DNA of 54,320 nt from Candidatus Woesearchaeota archaeon (GCA_002688775.1 NZDH01000015.1:1-54320); one strand, 5' to 3'; numbered from the stretch's first letter, positions 9,850 through 30,725 are shown. The notes: a model not told the origin generated them from the sequence alone. Program-made: numbers and translations.

Positions 9850-10021
9850 TAAGATTATTTTATTATTCTTTATTTTAATCGACCTCTTTTATCTGATATT
9901 CTTTATTTAACTTATATATATAGCTTGTGGAAAAGCTATTTCAGAAAACCTTTTAAATCGGTGTAAAATATCTTAATCCGATGGGCCCGTAGCTCAGTCT
10001 GGTTAGAGCGCCGGTCTTATA

Positions 10022-10067
10022 GGACCACTAATGGTACAAAATATAAAAACCATTGGAGAGCTAAGCC
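10022..10067 (+). other. 46-nt tRNA-Ile intron, position 37/38
   Basis: BHB: CUUA|UA^G ... UAAG|CC^A, 4-bp central helix CUUA/UAAG; intron hairpin CUAAUGGU/ACCAUUGG. Confidence 0.88.
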
Positions 10068-10073
10068 AGCCGG

Positions 10074-10094
10074 AAAGAGATTAATCTTGGCTAG
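10074..10094 (+). other. 21-nt tRNA-Ile intron, variable region 43/44
   Basis: AGCC|GG^A|AAGA gauuaa UCUU|GGCU|AG^A. Confidence 0.82.
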
Positions 10095-10184
10095 AGGTCG
10101 TTGGTTCAAATCCTATCGGGCCCACTTTTATTCAAAATTTATAGAAACTATTAAAAATAAACATCGAATTTTTTTTCAATAATT

Positions 10185-10279
10185 GCCCCTGTAGTGTAGA
10201 TGAATATACTTCAGCACAATCCGGCCAATCATTTCGGATTTTCGATCCGAGGACCTGGGTTCGAATCCCGGCGGGGGCA
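10185..10279 (+). tRNA. tRNA-Glu(UUC) with D-loop intron
   Basis: acceptor GCCCCUG/CGGGGGC; anticodon arm UCGGA-UUUUCGA-UCCGA; T-arm CUGGG-UUCGAAU-CCCGG. Confidence 0.92.
10200..10219 (+). other. 20-nt tRNA-Glu intron, D-loop 15/16
   Basis: GUGU|AG^A|UGAA uauac UUCA|GCAC|AA^U; removal restores GUGUAGUCCGGCCAAUC typical of archaeal tRNA-Glu. Confidence 0.9.
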
Positions 10280-10325
10280 TTTTATTTCTAAACCTTTTTA
10301 AATCCAATTTCATTTCTACTCTAGA

Positions 10326-10682
10326 ATGGCGAAAAGCTATTCTGAATTAGAAGCATGGGGGATATTTGTCGGGGCATTGATAATCGGGATTGTCCTTACA
10401 AGCGTATTTTGGGGCTTCATTACGATTCCTGAAGATGCGAAGAACTTAGAAAAGGAGATAGGAAATGCCTCAGAGACTGTCGATATTGAAATACCCATTG
10501 CGTTTATTGAGTTCTGCGATCAAGTCAAGGGAGATCCAAACTGGGACAATAGCGGGTTTAGGCAGTGCATTGTCAAAGAGCCAACAGAGAAAAATTTAAT
10601 AGTGATGAATTTATTATGCAAGAAGTTTGACTTGAACTTAAGCTACGGCTCTTTTGGTGTTAAATGTGAAGGGACAAAGTGA
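10326..10682 (+). CDS. hypothetical protein with N-terminal TM
   Basis: single TM plus short soluble domain. Confidence 0.6.
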   Translation: MAKSYSELEAWGIFVGALIIGIVLTSVFWGFITIPEDAKNLEKEIGNASETVDIEIPIAFIEFCDQVKGDPNWDNSGFRQCIVKEPTEKNLIVMNLLCKKFDLNLSYGSFGVKCEGTK

Positions 10683-10782
10683 AACTGTCTTATGCGAAAT
10701 CTGCAATACTGAGATGTTCGAAAGGCACTGCAAGATAATATGCCCCAATTGCGGCTTTGAGTGGGATTGCAGCGATCATTAA
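10666..10782 (+). CDS. 38-aa zinc-ribbon microprotein (GTG start), overlaps previous gene
   Basis: VKGQSETVLCEICNTEMFERHCKIICPNCGFEWDCSDH. Confidence 0.6.
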   Translation: MKGQSETVLCEICNTEMFERHCKIICPNCGFEWDCSDH

Positions 10783-10839
10783 GGCAAAGTTTTTAAAAAA
10801 GATTATTCTTCTAATCGTGCCAAGGTGGCAGAATCTGGC

Positions 10840-10868
10840 AAATGGCGAGGTTTACTCACATTCAGGAA
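10840..10868 (+). other. 29-nt tRNA-Ser intron, D-loop 20/20a
   Basis: UCUG|GC^A|AAUG ... CAUU|CAGG|AA^U. Confidence 0.9.
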
Positions 10869-10918
10869 TATTGCGTTCGCCTCGAAAGCGGATGTCCGCA
10901 AGGACTTCCCGGTTCAAA

Positions 10919-10937
10919 TTGCTGAAAAGCATGAAAG
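10919..10937 (+). other. 19-nt tRNA-Ser intron, T-loop 59/60
   Basis: UUCA|AA^U|UGCU gaaa AGCA|UGAA|AG^U; removal restores CCCGG-UUCAAAU-CCGGG. Confidence 0.92.
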
Positions 10938-10971
10938 TCCGGGCCTTGGCGTTTTAAATAAAAAGGCAACA

Positions 10972-12384
10972 ATGTTAAATTCAATTATTCCAGGAAAAAA
11001 AAGATTTTTTTATTTTATTTTGCTCTTTTCAATAATAATCATAACAGCAGGGTGCAACAAAGATTCAGATGATGTTGAGATCACACAAGAAGGCCTATTC
11101 ATAACTGGCGATGTTGTAACTGAAATACAAAGAGCCTGCAAATATCCTGATGGCACTTTCTGCACTGATAATTGCTGTATTTCTGATCAAATATGCGACA
11201 ATGAAGAATCAGCTTATATGGGATGCGACTTAGTGACCGGTGAATGGATAGAAACGACATACTCGGATGCAAAGTGCGAATCAGAGTGCAAAACAATTGA
11301 AATAAAGGAGGAGGATTTATCGGATGAAGAACAGATAGATACAAATGAAACAAAATTAGACATTAACATTAGTGTACCTCAAAATCAAGGGAGTTTATTG
11401 AATTGCACACAAGGATGGAAGTGCATAGATTCAGAATATGTATCCTATCAAATTTCTAATTGTTCTTTTATTGCTAAAGAATTTTGCGAAAAAGGATGCG
11501 TAAATAACAGCTGTGTAGCCCTTTGTACGCCCGGGGATTACACTTGTGATGGAGATACTTCAAGGATTTGTGATGAAGACGGTGATCATTGGTCTTACCA
11601 TAAAGAATGCAAGTATGGCTGCAATAACGGCACTTGCCAGCCTAGGTATGTAAACTACAATCAAACAAATGTGACTGTAAGCCAGGTTATTGACGGTGAT
11701 ACGGTAAAATTGGATACTGATGATGAAATAAGCTTAATTGGAATAAAGGCTCCTGGGAGCGGCCAAGCATATTATGATGAAGGGATTGCCAGATTAAAAG
11801 AATTAGTGGAAGGAAAAACAGTAATCCTCCATAATGACACCCAGGATAAAGATCCAAATGATAAGTTCTGGAGATATGTTTTTGTCGACAGCGATAACAT
11901 AAATGTAAAGCTTGTGCAGGAGGGATTTGCGAATGTCAGCATTGTATCACCGAATACCAGATACCAAAGTGAACTCGAGGCTGCCTGGCAGCAATGCCTA
12001 AGCAATGGGGTGAATTTATGCAATACTACTACTCAAAATGATTATATCGGCGATAATTGCTTTAGTGTCCTAAACTTCAATTACGATGCTGGCGGTGATG
12101 ATAACCAAAATTTAACTGATGAATATTTTACGCTAAAAAATTCCTGTTCATATTCAATAGACATGACAAGCTGGACTGCTACAGACGATGCTTCACATAC
12201 CTATACTGCCCCTACCTTTAACTTAGGCAATGGAACAAATGTTACCATCATCACCGGCTCTGGTTCAGATACTTCAACTGAATTATATTGGGGAAGGGGC
12301 AGTGCAGTGTGGAACAATGGTGGAGATACACTTTATCTGAATAATTCAGCAGGCCAGAGCGTTTTAAGTTATACATATCCTTAA
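10972..12384 (+). CDS. secreted lipoprotein: Cys-rich region + thermonuclease (SNase-like) + lamin-tail-like domain
   Basis: signal peptide ending AGC; VSQVIDGDTVKL, EGKTVILHNDTQDKDPNDKFWRYVFV; C-terminal EYFTLKNSCSYSIDMTSWTATDDASHTY. Confidence 0.82.
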   Translation: MLNSIIPGKKRFFYFILLFSIIIITAGCNKDSDDVEITQEGLFITGDVVTEIQRACKYPDGTFCTDNCCISDQICDNEESAYMGCDLVTGEWIETTYSDAKCESECKTIEIKEEDLSDEEQIDTNETKLDINISVPQNQGSLLNCTQGWKCIDSEYVSYQISNCSFIAKEFCEKGCVNNSCVALCTPGDYTCDGDTSRICDEDGDHWSYHKECKYGCNNGTCQPRYVNYNQTNVTVSQVIDGDTVKLDTDDEISLIGIKAPGSGQAYYDEGIARLKELVEGKTVILHNDTQDKDPNDKFWRYVFVDSDNINVKLVQEGFANVSIVSPNTRYQSELEAAWQQCLSNGVNLCNTTTQNDYIGDNCFSVLNFNYDAGGDDNQNLTDEYFTLKNSCSYSIDMTSWTATDDASHTYTAPTFNLGNGTNVTIITGSGSDTSTELYWGRGSAVWNNGGDTLYLNNSAGQSVLSYTYP

Positions 12385-12388
12385 CAAA

Positions 12389-13393
12389 ATGGCAACAATA
12401 TCCTTATGTTTGATAACAAAGAATGAAGAGAAATACTTAGGGCAATGCCTGAATAGCGTTAAAGGCATTGTTGATGAGATAATTGTTGTCGATACCGGCA
12501 GCACAGATAAGACAAAAGAGATTGCCAAGAAGTTCAATGCAAAGGTCTTTGATTTCAAGTGGGTTGATGATTTTAGCGCTGCCAGGAATGAAAGCCTGAA
12601 GCATGCAACAAAAGACTGGATCTTAGTTTTGGACGCTGATGAAATTATTGAAAAAGAACATTTAGAAATAATAAAAGAAGCAATTGATAGCGCAGAAGAG
12701 AATATTGCTGGTTTTGCATTAGAGCAAAGATCTTATATCAATAAGTATTTTGAAGGTGCAGCTCAAAATTTTTCAGATTTTGAATTAGTAAAAGAATATA
12801 AATTCTATATTTCTAATGTTTTGGTTAGATTATTTAAGAATAAGCTAGGAATTCATTTCAAGCATAGAGTCCATGAGCTGGTAGAAGATTCAATAAAAGA
12901 AAAACATCTAAAATATAAGAAAATAGATGCTGTTTTGCACCATTTTGGCTCTTTAAAGGATGTTGAATGGATAAAGGAAAAAGCAGAGCAGTATTCAAAG
13001 ATTATTCTAAAACAGCTTGAAGAAGAGCCGGAAAATGCAAGGTACAACTACCAGGCTGCCAGGATGTATCTTGGAAGGCATGATTTTGACAATGCCTTAA
13101 AACATTATGAAAAAACAGCTAAAATAAATCCGAATTACAAACTGATATACTCTGAAATTGCCAAGGCATATCTGATGATGGGTGATAAGGAAAAAGCTGT
13201 AGAATATTTCAAAAAAAGCATGAAGCAAAATCCAAATAACCCTGTTTCAGCAAACAATGCCGCTGTTATCTGCATGTCAATGGGAAAATTTGATGAGGCA
13301 AAGAAAATATTAGAAAAAGAATTAAAGAAGCATCCTGATAGTAAGGCTTTAATAATCAATTATGACGAAGTTTTGAAGAATTTAAAGAAATGA
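12389..13393 (+). CDS. family 2 glycosyltransferase with C-terminal TPR repeats
   Basis: ISLCLITKNEEKYLGQCLNSV..DEIIVVDTGSTDKT..LDADE; TPR-like repeats. Confidence 0.9.
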   Translation: MATISLCLITKNEEKYLGQCLNSVKGIVDEIIVVDTGSTDKTKEIAKKFNAKVFDFKWVDDFSAARNESLKHATKDWILVLDADEIIEKEHLEIIKEAIDSAEENIAGFALEQRSYINKYFEGAAQNFSDFELVKEYKFYISNVLVRLFKNKLGIHFKHRVHELVEDSIKEKHLKYKKIDAVLHHFGSLKDVEWIKEKAEQYSKIILKQLEEEPENARYNYQAARMYLGRHDFDNALKHYEKTAKINPNYKLIYSEIAKAYLMMGDKEKAVEYFKKSMKQNPNNPVSANNAAVICMSMGKFDEAKKILEKELKKHPDSKALIINYDEVLKNLKK

Positions 13394-13945
13394 TTACTTC
13401 CACTTTATAGAACATCCTATAGCAGGGGCAACTTCCATTGCGACTTTTTTATTATGGACTAAAGCTTCAACTGCGTTTCTTAAGTCTGTGACATTAACTT
13501 TTGTTTCGTCTTTTGGGCTGTCATCAACTCTTCCATGATATCTTAGTTTTCTTTCAGCATCAAAAGCAAAACATTCCGGAGTGCATTGGGCATCATAAGC
13601 AGTTGCTATTTTCTGATCCTGATCCCTTAGGTAGGTGAAGTTGAAATTTTTGGCTTTGCTGACTTCTATCATTTTTTCGAAGCTATCATCAGGGTAATTT
13701 ACTTCGTCATTTGCATTAATGCCGACAATTTGCACACCTTTGATCCCATAATCGCTTTGAATTGACTTGATCCTTTCAATTGAGCCTTGAACATAAGGAC
13801 AATGGTTGCACATGAACACAACAACAATTATTTTCTTGTTTCTGAAATCATGAAGGGTGTATGTTTTCCCATCAACACCAGGCAAGCTAAAGTCCGGTGC
13901 TTTGTCTCCGATCTTTAATTTTGTATTCTGAAGATTTGTTTCCAT
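13394..13945 (-). CDS. thioredoxin-like / AhpC-TSA family protein
   Basis: [24 protein letters not shown]...[11 protein letters not shown]; start set at METNLQ. Confidence 0.85.
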
Positions 13946-14004
13946 AATATTCACATAAAAAAGAGATGAATAAGATTTATTTAAGGTTTTGGTTTTGAAA
14001 TAAA

Positions 14005-14173
14005 TGCCGCTGGCGAGATTTGAACTCACGACTTTTACACGCAGCAAGATATTCTTAACTGCTCTACGTAACCCGGTTAGATTTGAGTATGTCATCCCTT
14101 TCGGTCATAGCTCAAAAATATGAGCCTCGCTTCATAAAGATGTAGCGCTCTAACCAGGCTGAACTACAGCGGC
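14005..14173 (-). tRNA. intron-interrupted tRNA, isotype unresolved (~94 nt excess)
   Basis: 5' half GCCGCUG-UA-GUUC-AGCCUGGUUA-GAGC; 3' half AAGUC-GUGAG-UUCAAAU-CUCGC-CAGCGGC-A; 7-bp acceptor; candidate 43/44 intron with ACGU|AG^A|GCAG..CUGC|GUGU|AA^A. Confidence 0.65.
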
Positions 14174-14213
14174 CTATATCTCAAGAAAAAGACCCATTTT
14201 AAAAAGTTTGCTG

Positions 14214-14630
14214 TTAAAGAAATTTCTTTATATTATCGGCATATTTCTTTATTTCGTCATTCTCGTACTTTAGATGACTCCATTTGATTCTTAATCTGTC
14301 TTTTTGGAATCTTGGTATGATGTGGAGATGGGCATGATGCACAACTTGGCCTGCTTCTTTGCCGTTGTTCATTACTAGATTGAAGCCTGTATTGCCAAAG
14401 CTTAGAGAGACTGCTTTTGCAATTTTTTTTACTGCTAATATTGTTGCAGCTAAATCCTTGTCGTCCATCTCAACCAAGGTAGGAACATGCTTTTTTGGGA
14501 TTATTAAGCAATGCCCTTTGTTGGCAGGCATTATATCAAGAAAGGCGATTACCATGGCATCTTCATAGATCTTAGCTGCTGGTACTTTTCCATCAACAAT
14601 CTTGCAAAAAACACAATCTTCAGTTTTCAT
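14214..14630 (-). CDS. HIT family protein
   Basis: CVFCKIVDGKVPAAKIYED ... QVVHHAHLHIIPRF. Confidence 0.95.
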   Translation of the reverse strand: MKTEDCVFCKIVDGKVPAAKIYEDAMVIAFLDIMPANKGHCLIIPKKHVPTLVEMDDKDLAATILAVKKIAKAVSLSFGNTGFNLVMNNGKEAGQVVHHAHLHIIPRFQKDRLRIKWSHLKYENDEIKKYADNIKKFL

Positions 14631-14688
14631 TTGAGAACTTTGTGATATAACAGGGTCATATTTATTGCTTTTGATTATTATTAATCAA

Positions 14689-14779
14689 TGGACTGGCCGA
14701 GATTTGAACTCGGAGTCTTATGGGTTTGAATGAATCTCCCAAGCCAAGGGAGCGCGATACCGGATTACGCCACCAGCCC
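14689..14779 (-). tRNA. tRNA-Ala(GGC) with variable-region intron
   Basis: GGGCUGG/CCAGUCC with G3-U70; anticodon arm CUCCC-UUGGCUU-GGGAG; T-arm CCGAG-UUCAAAU-CUCGG; discriminator A. Confidence 0.82.
14719..14735 (-). other. 17-nt tRNA-Ala intron, variable region 43/44
   Basis: UGGG|AG^A ... CCCA|UA^A; short intron helix; leaves AGACU variable region. Confidence 0.72.
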
Positions 14780-15532
14780 CTATCCAGTCCGAGCCTTAAG
14801 CGGCTTTGTCAGGCTTATAAAGTTATCCACTGAACTCTTAAGTATTTCTACATAGTACACTGTTTTTTCATTTCCCCTATTTCTATTACATACATATATG
14901 CTATTTCTTATTTCAAACTGGTTAAGAACAATATGAACTTGCTTTGAAAGTTGTTCTGATGTTGTACAATAGGATGCCCTAGTTCTTTTCTCCTTTTCAA
15001 TATGTATAATTGTTCCATCGGTGTCTAAGAATCCTTTAAGAAAACCAATTTTAAAATCTCTAGGTAAATTTAATGATTTTAACTTGACAGTAGAATGTTT
15101 TATCTTTGAATTATAATCTAAATAGTTAGAAAAATATTCAAACATTGCTTTTGATTTTGTTCTTAGTTTAAAACAAGCCTTATCTTTCGAAACCCAAAAT
15201 CCTTTATTGAAGTGATTTTCAAACAGTCCCTTAACATATTCCAAGTATTCCTCGTTCTTTCTACCAATATGAATTGTAACCTCATAAGATCCGCCTTTTG
15301 GCTCATAATACTGACTGCCATCACCAGCAAAAATGCCTACAACTTCCCCATCAACTTGAGTATAGGATGTTGTAAATTTTTTAATTGGTCTGTTATATTT
15401 ACCTTTAATAAAAGAATGCCTTATAACTGTAGATCTTGGGATATTTAAGATTCTTGAAATTTCATGTTTAGAATATCCCCAATGCAATAATTCATTAATA
15501 TTATCTTTTTTAATTTGTGTTAATTTTCTCAT
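14780..15532 (-). CDS. LAGLIDADG-type homing endonuclease with N-terminal HTH
   Basis: VVGIFAGDGSQ and IGFLKGFLDTDGTI motifs; N-terminal GYSKHEISRILNIPRSTVIRH. Confidence 0.85.
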   Translation of the reverse strand: MRKLTQIKKDNINELLHWGYSKHEISRILNIPRSTVIRHSFIKGKYNRPIKKFTTSYTQVDGEVVGIFAGDGSQYYEPKGGSYEVTIHIGRKNEEYLEYVKGLFENHFNKGFWVSKDKACFKLRTKSKAMFEYFSNYLDYNSKIKHSTVKLKSLNLPRDFKIGFLKGFLDTDGTIIHIEKEKRTRASYCTTSEQLSKQVHIVLNQFEIRNSIYVCNRNRGNEKTVYYVEILKSSVDNFISLTKPLKARTG

Positions 15533-27006: not shown

Positions 27007-28071
27007 ATGCCAAAAAAGGTGCTTAAGGATTTTGAGATTGAATATCTGCAAGTATTAGATGAAAATGGCAATTGTGATGAAAAGTTAATGCCGAAATTGT
27101 CTAATGAGGAAATCAAAAAGATTTACGAGATGATCATTCTAATAAGGGTTTTTGACCAGAAAGCCTTCAATATGCAGCGGCAAGGCAGATTAGGAACTTA
27201 CATCCAGTTCAAGGGCCAGGAAGCAAGCCAGGTTGGCAGTGCTATGGCTTTGAAAGATGATGATTTTGTTTTTCCAATGTACAGGAGCAGCGGCTTGTTG
27301 ATAGCAAGAAAGCATCCGATCGTTCAGGTGCTTCAATATTGGAACGGTGATGAAAGGGGCCTTAAGAGTCCTGACAATGTAAACAATTTTCCGATCTCGA
27401 TCCCTGTCGGGACGCACATGATACATTCTGCCGGCGCTGCATGGGCTGCAAAGCTAAGAGGCACAAAACAGATATCAATCTCATATTTTGGTGATGGAGC
27501 TACTTCAAAAGGTGATTTTCATGAGGCAATGAATTTTGCCGGTGTCTTTAATGTTCCTGCTGTTTTTCTTTGCGAAAACAACCAGTTTGCGATTTCTGTA
27601 CATAGAAAAGATCAGACAAAGTCCGAGACAATTGCGCAGAAAGCGATTGCTTATGGGTTTGAGGGGATACAAGTCGATGGAATGGATGTGTTTGCAGTCT
27701 ACAAAGCAACAAAAGACGCTGTTGACAAGGCAAGGGCCGGAAAAGGACCTACATTGATTGAATGCGTCACATACAGGATGGCAGACCATTCCACTTCTGA
27801 CGATGCATCCCGTTACAGGACAAAAGAAGAAGTGCAGGCCTGGCAAAAAAAGGATCCTGTTGAAAGGCTGGAGAAGTATATGCGCAAAAAAAATTTGCTT
27901 GATGACGCTTACAAGGAAAAAATTTTGAAGCAGTCAAAAGAAACTATTGAAAAAGCAGTAACTCAATTTGAAAAATTAGAGGCTCCTGATCCAAAAGACA
28001 TGTTTAATTATGTTTTTGCTGAAATGACGCCTCAGCAAAAAGAAGAGATGGAGGAATTGTTGGGGAAATAA
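27007..28071 (+). CDS. pdhA: pyruvate/2-oxoacid dehydrogenase E1 alpha
   Basis: ISYFGDGATSKGDFHEAMNFAGVFNVPAVFLCENNQFAIS. Confidence 0.93.
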   Translation: MPKKVLKDFEIEYLQVLDENGNCDEKLMPKLSNEEIKKIYEMIILIRVFDQKAFNMQRQGRLGTYIQFKGQEASQVGSAMALKDDDFVFPMYRSSGLLIARKHPIVQVLQYWNGDERGLKSPDNVNNFPISIPVGTHMIHSAGAAWAAKLRGTKQISISYFGDGATSKGDFHEAMNFAGVFNVPAVFLCENNQFAISVHRKDQTKSETIAQKAIAYGFEGIQVDGMDVFAVYKATKDAVDKARAGKGPTLIECVTYRMADHSTSDDASRYRTKEEVQAWQKKDPVERLEKYMRKKNLLDDAYKEKILKQSKETIEKAVTQFEKLEAPDPKDMFNYVFAEMTPQQKEEMEELLGK

Positions 28072-28072
28072 A

Positions 28073-28495
28073 ATGGAAAACGAGTTTATGAAGTCAAAGA
28101 TCATGTATTGGATAATTATTATATTTACAATTCTTTTGTTGGTCGGTAATTTAATGATATTGTTTGTTGCATTTTCATCGACAAAGCTAGTTTATACATC
28201 AAGTTTAAATGTAGGTGGTGGTTTAACTAGAACTCTCACTGCTGATTCTCCAATTTATTCTGTGCTGGAGCCATATAGTGCTGCTCTAATAGTTTTAGTC
28301 ACATTGGTTGAGATGTCCCTTCTTGGCTATTTCCTTTTTTGTTTTGTGAAAGGAAAGACTAAAACCGGCAAAATCCTTGGAATTGTTTTGTACGGAATTA
28401 TTGCTTTGGTATCTCTGTTTCAACTGAGAATATTAATTGGAGGTATATCTTTGTTGGTGGTTGCTTATCTAGCAAATATTAAAATACGAAAATAA
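28073..28495 (+). CDS. membrane protein within the PDH operon
   Basis: four hydrophobic segments; tightly packed between E1a and E1b. Confidence 0.75.
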   Translation: MENEFMKSKIMYWIIIIFTILLLVGNLMILFVAFSSTKLVYTSSLNVGGGLTRTLTADSPIYSVLEPYSAALIVLVTLVEMSLLGYFLFCFVKGKTKTGKILGIVLYGIIALVSLFQLRILIGGISLLVVAYLANIKIRK

Positions 28496-28496
28496 A

Positions 28497-29471
28497 ATGG
28501 TAGTATCAAACATTGTTCAGGCTGTAACGCACGGATTAAGGCAGGAATTAGCTAGAGATAAGAATGTTGTTGTTCTTGGAGAAGATGTTGGAGTTAATGG
28601 CGGTGTTTTCAGGGCGACAGATGGTTTGCAAAAAGAATTTGGAGCAGACAGGGTTATTGATACTCCTTTAGCAGAACTTGGAATTGTTGGAGCATCAATA
28701 GGATTAGCTGTAAATGGCATGAAGCCTGTCGCTGAAATACAATTTAGTGGATTTATGTATGGTCCATTTGATCAATTATTGAGCCATGCAGCAAGAGTAA
28801 GGATGAGGAGCAGAGGAAGATTCACATGCCCATTGGTTGTAAGAACACCTTACGGAGCAGGGATAAGGGCTTTGGAACTGCACTGCGAATCTGGCGAATC
28901 TATGTTTTCAAATATTGCAGGCCTTAAGATGGTTGTGCCATCAAACCCGTACGACACAAAAGGTTTGTTGGCAGCTGCGATAAGAGATCCTGATCCTGTA
29001 ATCTTCTATGAGCCCATGAGAATATACAGGGCTATAAAACAAGACATTCCTGAAAAAGAATATTTTGTTCCTATTGGAAAGGCCAATGTTCTCCAAGAAG
29101 GAAAGGACCTAACATTAATTGCATGGGGTGCAATGGTTAAAGTCTGCCAAGATGCCCTTGAAAAACTTAACAACAAATACAGCGTTCAATTAATTGATTT
29201 AAGAACAATAAATCCATACGATGCAGAAACTGTACTTGCATCAGTAAAGAAAACCGGGAGATGTGTAATTGTGCATGAAGCAATTAGGACTTGCGGGTTT
29301 GCTGCTGAATTAATCGCTTCTATAAATGAAAAAGCCTTGTTGAATCTAGAAGCCCCTGTTGTAAGAGTTACATCCCCGGATGTACCTTTGCCTTTTGCAA
29401 AGTTAGAGAATTATTTTTTACCTGATGTAAATCGGATTTTGAAAGGGATAGAAAAAGTAATGAGTTTTTAA
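28497..29471 (+). CDS. pdhB: pyruvate/2-oxoacid dehydrogenase E1 beta
   Basis: VVLGEDVGVNGGVFRATDGLQKEFGADRVIDTPLAE. Confidence 0.95.
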   Translation: MVVSNIVQAVTHGLRQELARDKNVVVLGEDVGVNGGVFRATDGLQKEFGADRVIDTPLAELGIVGASIGLAVNGMKPVAEIQFSGFMYGPFDQLLSHAARVRMRSRGRFTCPLVVRTPYGAGIRALELHCESGESMFSNIAGLKMVVPSNPYDTKGLLAAAIRDPDPVIFYEPMRIYRAIKQDIPEKEYFVPIGKANVLQEGKDLTLIAWGAMVKVCQDALEKLNNKYSVQLIDLRTINPYDAETVLASVKKTGRCVIVHEAIRTCGFAAELIASINEKALLNLEAPVVRVTSPDVPLPFAKLENYFLPDVNRILKGIEKVMSF

Positions 29472-29483
29472 ACAAACAATAAA

Positions 29484-30725
29484 ATGCCTTACGAATTTAA
29501 GTTTCCGGATGTTGGAGAAGGGATCCATGAGGGAGAAATAGTTAAATGGCTTGTCAAGGAAGGTGATGAAATAGAAGCTGATGCACCTTTAGGTGAGGTT
29601 GAGACAGACAAAGCTGTTGTTGAGATGCCATCACCAAAAACTGGCAAAATTCTGAAGATTCATGTCAAGGCAGGCGATACGATTAAAGTTGGCGAAACGA
29701 TGGTTACAATTCTTGAGAAAGGTGAAAGCACAGAGAAGCCAATGCAGGTAAAGAAGTCTGAATCAAAAAAAGGTGTCCCTTATACCGGTTCTGTTGTCGG
29801 ATTTCTAGAAGAGGCAAAAGATATAAAACCAGTTCAAACAACACAAGTAAAAACAACAACAAAGGATTCTGGAATAATTGCAACTCCTGCTGTAAGAAAT
29901 CTGGCAAAGCAGAAAAATGTTGAATTATCTATTATAAAAGGAACTGGACCTGAAGGAAGAATTACATTCCAGGATGTAGAAAAGGCAAGTGGCTCAACAA
30001 AAGCTGCTACTGGAATCAAGGTTGTCAAAAAATATGACTTTTTTGGCTATATTGACAGGGTTCCCTTGCATGGCGTAAGAAAAACAGTTGCTAAGAGAAT
30101 GACAGAATCAATATTTACAGGAGCTCAATTAACAAACATGTATGAAACTGATGTAACTGAGCTGTTTGACTTAAGGGAAAAAGAAAAATCAAAATATAAA
30201 AAAGAGGGAATAAAGCTTACTTTCTTCTCTTATTTAGTCAAAATTTGCGCTCTTTGCCTAAAAGATCACCCTTATCTTAATGCTTCATTAGAAGGTGAAG
30301 AAATAATATTAAAAAAATATTACAACATTGGAATTGCTGTTGACACTAAACATGGATTGTACAATCCTGTAATTAAAGGCGCGCAAGAAAAAGATATCAA
30401 AACAATTTCAAAAGAGATTGAAAAATTAGCAAATGATTCAAGAAGCAGAAAAATCAATTTAATGGACTTGAAAGGGAGTTCTTTTTCCATAAGCAATCTC
30501 GGAGCTATTGGCGTTGAATTCTTCACCCCAATTATCAATTATCCGGAAAGCGCCATTTTAGGCGTTGGAAGAATTGTGGAAAAGCCAGTCGTAAGAAACG
30601 GTAAAATAGAGATCAGGAAGATACTTCCCTTATCTTTAACATATGATCACAGGATTGTGGACGGCGCTGAAGCTGCAAGGTTCATGATTGATGTCATGAA
30701 GAGATTGGAGAAATGTGAGTTCTAG
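29484..30725 (+). CDS. pdhC: dihydrolipoamide acyltransferase E2
   Basis: lipoyl domain GEVETDKAVVEMPSP; catalytic LSLTYDHRIVDGAEAARFM. Confidence 0.95.
   Translation: MPYEFKFPDVGEGIHEGEIVKWLVKEGDEIEADAPLGEVETDKAVVEMPSPKTGKILKIHVKAGDTIKVGETMVTILEKGESTEKPMQVKKSESKKGVPYTGSVVGFLEEAKDIKPVQTTQVKTTTKDSGIIATPAVRNLAKQKNVELSIIKGTGPEGRITFQDVEKASGSTKAATGIKVVKKYDFFGYIDRVPLHGVRKTVAKRMTESIFTGAQLTNMYETDVTELFDLREKEKSKYKKEGIKLTFFSYLVKICALCLKDHPYLNASLEGEEIILKKYYNIGIAVDTKHGLYNPVIKGAQEKDIKTISKEIEKLANDSRSRKINLMDLKGSSFSISNLGAIGVEFFTPIINYPESAILGVGRIVEKPVVRNGKIEIRKILPLSLTYDHRIVDGAEAARFMIDVMKRLEKCEF

Follow-up and report, generated by a model that had tools for sequence, protein, structure and literature searches.

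The accepted view ties non-canonical tRNA introns in archaea to a splicing endonuclease, EndA, that carries an added loop or a second subunit, and the homotetrameric alpha4 form of the enzyme is held to cut only the canonical bulge-helix-bulge (BHB) motif (PMC4033280, PMC6379350). Here I describe a stretch of 54,320 nucleotides from a Candidatus Woesearchaeota archaeon (GCA_002688775.1, NZDH01000015.1:1-54320; this whole stretch is hereafter called the window), in which five tRNA genes carry nine introns. The original prediction made on this DNA had placed dense non-canonical tRNA introns mainly in Thermoproteales, a statement that is out of date, as they are now known from Asgards, Nanoarchaeum, ARMAN and Korarchaeum. 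Thermoproteales have a mean of 0.84 introns per gene, the highest count being 71 in 46 genes (PMC8450103); the tRNA introns of Nanoarchaeum, ARMAN and Korarchaeum were already known (PMC4033280), and in 2024 Asgard genomes with 92–95% of their tRNA genes interrupted were reported (PMC11291895).

As in Thermoproteales such as Pyrobaculum, the BHB introns described here lie in the D-arm, anticodon arm, variable region and T-loop, with at most three per gene; unlike there, they number about 1.3 per gene found, and accompany a single loop-less EndA. The Asgard lineages concerned, Atabeyarchaeia and Freyarchaeia, are similar in that interruption is often at non-canonical positions and more than half of the genes are multi-intron (PMC11291895), but are unrelated to the lineage studied here. 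Nanoarchaeum equitans is also a member of the DPANN archaea, uses tRNA-Ile(UAU) and possesses the nearest solved EndA relative (NEQ205, E-value 2.7e-37); it differs in that some of its tRNAs are split and its EndA has a second subunit (NEQ261), whereas here the five genes are contiguous and no second subunit was found. Finally, the alpha4 EndA of Methanocaldococcus jannaschii is likewise a single-gene, two-domain protein with an acidic L10 loop and no insert of the Crenarchaeal specificity loop (CSL) or ASL kind, but it is held to cut canonical BHB motifs only (PMC4033280), while the Woesearchaeal genomes are full of relaxed introns. Dense non-canonical tRNA introns are thus not new in themselves; their combination with a single loop-less EndA departs from the accepted account. 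No report of such introns in Woesearchaeota was found in the open-access papers searched (subscription journals were outside the search).

The window corresponds to contig C4 in the 1.04 Mb, 73% complete genome of a tiny uncultured archaeon. Its GluRS is 74–80% identical to that of several Candidatus Woesearchaeota metagenome-assembled genomes (MAGs), which assigns the lineage by sequence to Woesearchaeota, within DPANN, and bears out the DPANN-like origin proposed earlier. I consider it probable that the five loci are functional tRNA genes with BHB introns, which would be cut by a loop-less EndA homotetramer that accepts relaxed motifs.

Five interrupted tRNA genes

Both strands of the window were searched with a self-written, BHB-aware cloverleaf finder (threshold 42), which removes up to three introns per gene provided that positions -6 to -3 of exon 1 pair with positions -6 to -3 of the intron, that is, with BHB geometry and 2^1 cuts. 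Over the whole 54 kb it returned five tRNA genes only, with nine introns of 16–49 nt inside 4.8 kb, and in all five the cloverleaf is canonical after intron removal.

The first of these, tRNA-Ile(UAU) (9983..10124, plus strand; finder and Rfam tRNA model), contains two introns identified by the finder, one of 46 nt at position 37/38 (10022..10067, central helix CUUA/UAAG) and one of 21 nt at 43/44 (10074..10094, AGCC/GGCU). It is followed on the same strand by tRNA-Glu(UUC) (10185..10279), with a single 20-nt intron in the D-loop at 15/16 (10200..10219, GUGU/GCAC), and by tRNA-Ser(CGA) (10819..10951), with a 29-nt intron at 20/20a (10840..10868, UCUG/CAGG) and a 19-nt intron in the T-loop at 59/60 (10919..10937, UUCA/UGAA); both genes and their introns were identified by the finder and by spliced alignment. 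On the minus strand, an elongator-type tRNA-Met(CAU) (14005..14173; finder with relaxed helix, Rfam and spliced alignment) possesses three introns: 16 nt at 30/31 (14126..14141, CGCU/AGCG) and 49 nt at 37/38 (14070..14118, only three of four pairs in a bulge-helix-loop-like arrangement), each from finder and spliced alignment, and 29 nt at 43/44 (14033..14061), taken from spliced alignment, where the finder's central helix holds two G-U pairs. The last, tRNA-Ala(GGC) (14689..14779, minus strand; finder, ARAGORN and Rfam), has a 17-nt intron at 43/44 (14719..14735, UGGG/CCCA; finder).

The original prediction had listed the Ile, Glu, Ser and Ala genes with six introns, each with a 4-bp helix and 2^1 cuts. 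The finder recovered all of these, and the described geometry is true of the six, with one G-U pair each in Glu and Ser 20/20a. The Met gene was overlooked in that prediction, and was resolved to three introns once the helix rule of the finder was slightly relaxed. Across the window, the 4-bp central helix with 2^1 geometry is clear in seven of nine introns, and weak in Met 37/38 and 43/44. By the pair counts of the finder, helices of at least two pairs on both flanks are present only in Ser 59/60, Met 30/31 and Met 43/44, and the six other introns are relaxed motifs.

Standard tools see these genes in part. ARAGORN, in its bacterial setting, found Ala alone among the window tRNAs, and the Rfam tRNA model found Ile, Met and Ala, with Glu and Ser not recovered as whole genes; the earlier expectation that normal annotation would miss these tRNAs thus holds for some of them. 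Group I introns are ruled out, as their catalytic core needs about 200 nt or more and the introns here measure 16–49 nt. No split (trans-spliced) halves occur among the five genes, all of which are contiguous. The window introns are archaeal BHB introns of the spliced type.

Controls, genome-wide extent and intron turnover

Several controls address the motifs. At thresholds of 40 or above, the finder had no hit in two whole genomes read in reverse, nor in first-order Markov sequence modelled on them. A closed genome from another family of the same order (G026; single contig, 100% complete) gave 15 interrupted tRNAs at score 50 with the right pairing geometry, and 0–6 with shifted geometries. 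By shuffling, a central helix is expected by chance at the cloverleaf-optimal boundary for 1–9% per intron. The finder presupposes the BHB motif, and therefore two further tests were made that do not. A search of two genomes without the BHB requirement returned 31 single-intron tRNAs, and none in reversed sequence; 16 of the 31 possess the central helix at the expected offset and at the cloverleaf-optimal boundary, as compared to 1–8 for offsets that alter the relation of the two strands. In the second test, a BHB-blind spliced aligner matched mature templates to syntenic loci from 15 members of the genus and from another Woesearchaeote. Within the window, the junctions obtained were identical to those of the finder for Glu, both Ser and all three Met introns, although the Ile and Glu alignments are not independent because their templates are the window's own spliced sequences. 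Among 49 introns defined by alignment, 33 have the central helix at the exact predicted geometry, against 0–15 for 48 other geometries. A chance origin of the motifs is rejected by the reversed, Markov and shifted-geometry controls.

I then surveyed tRNA genes beyond the window, a check suggested in the original prediction, and interruption proved to be genome-wide, and present in G026 as well. Combining searches, the window's genome has about 32 tRNA genes found, 26 of them interrupted by some 40 introns (one gene is entered twice because two contig ends overlap), and G026 has 28 found, 22 interrupted, with about 37 introns; these totals are estimates, since some two-intron solutions are ambiguous. 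In both genomes positions 59/60 and 37/38 are the commonest, and by the pair-count criterion helices on both flanks are present in 10 of 33 and 13 of 31 introns respectively, the remainder being relaxed. In the complete G026 the finder did not recover several isotypes, Phe and Trp among them; these may be encoded by split or more heavily interrupted genes.

The overlapping ends in the window's genome (C8:74113-74395 and C9:44678-44960) have almost the same sequence but opposite orientations, and show a one-base difference in a tRNA anticodon (GGC versus GCC). They are probably overlapping contigs from two strains.

Could the interrupted copies be pseudogenes or assembly artefacts, with intact tRNAs elsewhere? 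The window's assembly is just 73% complete, which leaves room for such copies, and intact copies were among the observations that the original prediction had named as telling against it. No uninterrupted full-length copy of any of the five tRNAs is present elsewhere in this assembly, and in the closed G026 many isotypes were found solely as interrupted genes. In addition, the spliced cloverleafs are good, and the introns of orthologues from independent assemblies occupy other positions. I regard this explanation as extremely improbable.

The orthologues also illustrate how variable the introns are. An orthologue of tRNA-Ser(CGA) (L036:4229-4314) is intronless; tRNA-Met orthologues possess the 37/38 intron alone in three loci (L253, L261, L267) and introns at 30/31 and 37/38 in two others (L259, L264); and 14 further tRNA-Ala loci, alike in mature sequence, have one to three introns each, distributed in changing combinations over about seven positions. 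Such differences point to introns that are young, and quickly gained and lost.

On a larger scale, the number of tRNAs detectable with Rfam varies among 145 genomes of the order between 6 and an upper limit of about 31, with high and low counts coexisting within families f11, f31, f53, f54, f61 and f74. Taking the Rfam count as a proxy, this suggests repeated gain or loss of introns within the order. That intron-rich and intron-poor genomes are mixed within families fits the earlier proposal that introns accumulated independently in this lineage, but the support is incomplete, as the count is a proxy.

One route of gain may be visible in G026, where four introns, in the Glu, Arg and Ile genes (at 59/60) and in a Met gene, are alike in sequence (similarity scores 28–58, against a shuffled maximum of 21), resembling the intron copying between tRNA genes described in Thermoproteales. 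In the window's own genome, no introns were similar above chance, except at the duplicated contig end. Some of the alike introns contain the motif CACT(N)ACGTTCG, which occurs eight times in G026, including at apparently intergenic places (contig C1, 673176, 995517 and 1199995), and once in the reversed genome. It is possible that this motif represents a small dispersed element behind the spread of introns.

The splicing enzymes

The window's genome encodes a single EndA of 190 amino acids (L031:1216-1788), with both the N- and C-terminal domains. Most of 145 genomes show exactly one copy, a few have two of the same type and seven show none; where a second hit appears, it is in most cases weak or a fragment. 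When every open reading frame of G026 was searched with a profile, no second EndA subunit was revealed, and the candidate of a hidden beta subunit of the Nanoarchaeum type was not found in this closed genome.

The CSL is an insert between the YG and LSLIE motifs. In Aeropyrum pernix EndA the critical lysine, K44 (PMC6379350), falls inside a 9-residue insert, as counted along the alignment. No CSL/ASL insert is present between YG and LSL in any matched Woesearchaeal EndA (46 of 57 segments were matchable). The L10 loop is acidic (VDAENDVTFYE), as is its M. jannaschii counterpart (VDADGDIVYYN), and the catalytic subunits of Nanoarchaeum and Sulfolobus tokodaii are without the acidic loop. Classification of EndA, another check proposed at the outset, therefore yields an alpha4 type as judged from these features, although a strongly diverged second subunit may escape the profile. 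Neither an (alpha-beta)2 nor an epsilon2 enzyme (a second subunit, or a fused three-unit protein with a specificity loop) was found, a diverged beta subunit being hard to detect. The broad-specificity EndA implied by the original prediction is not borne out at the sequence level: the genomes examined show a single-gene, loop-less protein. A search for an EndA residue that predicts intron load was unconvincing (best z of 3.3, with many columns and residues tested and a crude proxy).

The tRNA splicing ligase RtcB is also encoded in the window's genome. Within the gene (L210:369-3347, contig C18) lies an intein that has a LAGLIDADG domain (PF14890, PF14528).

From the motif and the gene content, a splicing pathway can be proposed. 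The end of the upstream exon would pair with the end of the intron to form the 4-bp central helix, EndA would cut each 3-nt bulge after its second nucleotide, and RtcB would join the exons, with two or three introns sometimes removed from one precursor. The cutter would most likely be a homotetramer of one loop-less EndA, accepting relaxed BHB motifs at many positions. Introns would be rapidly gained and lost, at least sometimes by copying between tRNA genes. The gene content suggests that the strict-BHB limit of the alpha4 homotetramer may not hold here.

Several observations count against this proposal. The spliced aligner put the Ala junction about 1–2 bases off and fused the two Ile introns; the central helices of two Met introns are weak; intron splits are sometimes ambiguous, as for a Met gene of G026 assigned two introns and later one; and splicing in the cell is deduced from motif and gene content. 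Lastly, the EndA profile barely detects crenarchaeal beta subunits, or not at all: against the PDB it matched the Nanoarchaeum beta with an E-value of 1.5e-18 and the Pyrobaculum beta with 0.19, and its hits did not include that of A. pernix, so that a beta subunit of strong divergence might escape it.

This last point opens the way to another explanation, in which the introns are the same, but the cutter is an (alpha-beta)2 or otherwise assisted EndA, with a second subunit that has diverged beyond recognition, and the published rule stands. It would agree with this that, among solved structures, the Woesearchaeal protein is closest to the catalytic subunit in the heterotetramer of Nanoarchaeum. 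A beta of the Nanoarchaeum type is detectable by profile, yet absent from the closed G026, and the acidic L10 loop is retained in the Woesearchaeal protein, while the catalytic subunits of Nanoarchaeum and S. tokodaii lack it. I consider an undetected subunit unlikely.

Alternatively, no special specificity may be required: if these archaea are mesophiles, as is probable, a 4-bp helix with one flanking helix may be stable enough for an ordinary alpha4 enzyme. Each intron accepted by the finder has at least one flanking helix, though by construction, and several sister genomes are MAGs from groundwater. Moreover, cleavage of a minimal BHB at 30 °C is reported for a homodimeric euryarchaeal enzyme, a reaction that M. 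jannaschii EndA carried out only at 65 °C (PMC8707768). However, reviews describe few, canonical introns in Euryarchaeota with alpha4 or alpha2 enzymes, and the intron-poor members of the order possess the same EndA type as the intron-rich ones. This explanation is somewhat unlikely, and a loop-less homotetramer of relaxed specificity remains the reading that I favour.

A LAGLIDADG neighbour and wider significance

A free-standing gene of the LAGLIDADG_3 family, identified by domain match as a putative homing-endonuclease gene (HEG), is located at 14783..15532 on the minus strand, and ends 4 nt upstream of tRNA-Ala. Of 353 genomes of the order, 68 have homologues. Thirty loci were inspected (the window and L274-L302), and 28 of them have a tRNA gene no more than 150 nt away, mostly at 2–25 nt. 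For close homologues the partner is tRNA-Ala; for the others it is largely tRNA-Gly (UCC, CCC or GCC), and also Pro and Ile. In the Ala group, a TATA-like box at the spacing expected for the promoter of the tRNA falls inside the 3' portion of the endonuclease coding sequence.

The LAGLIDADG protein is a candidate agent for the exchange of tRNA loci. It was rejected as the cause of the Ala introns, no association being apparent: the genus members examined that lack the HEG carry Ala introns, some Ala genes next to an HEG are intronless, and co-transfer of tRNA-Ala with the gene from other carriers is unsupported by tRNA identities. A broader proposal would combine both themes: a loop-less homotetrameric EndA of broad, position-independent specificity, a route distinct from CSL and ASL, would have let introns explode repeatedly within the order, and the tRNA-flush LAGLIDADG family would drive the exchange of tRNA loci together with their introns. 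Taken as a whole, I find this quite improbable.

Elsewhere in the window (27007-30725) are genes for E1 alpha, E1 beta and the lipoyl E2 of a 2-oxoacid dehydrogenase complex, which are notable in a small DPANN genome.

With regard to the splicing enzyme, either the EndA rule or the known parts list of the enzyme needs revising. Intron-rich and intron-poor genomes of the order share one loop-less EndA, and the causes of broad specificity and of intron gain can therefore be tested in close relatives. The finding also bears on DPANN genomes more generally: because interrupted tRNAs escape ordinary searches, tRNA counts are too low in many of them, and judgements of their completeness may be too low likewise.

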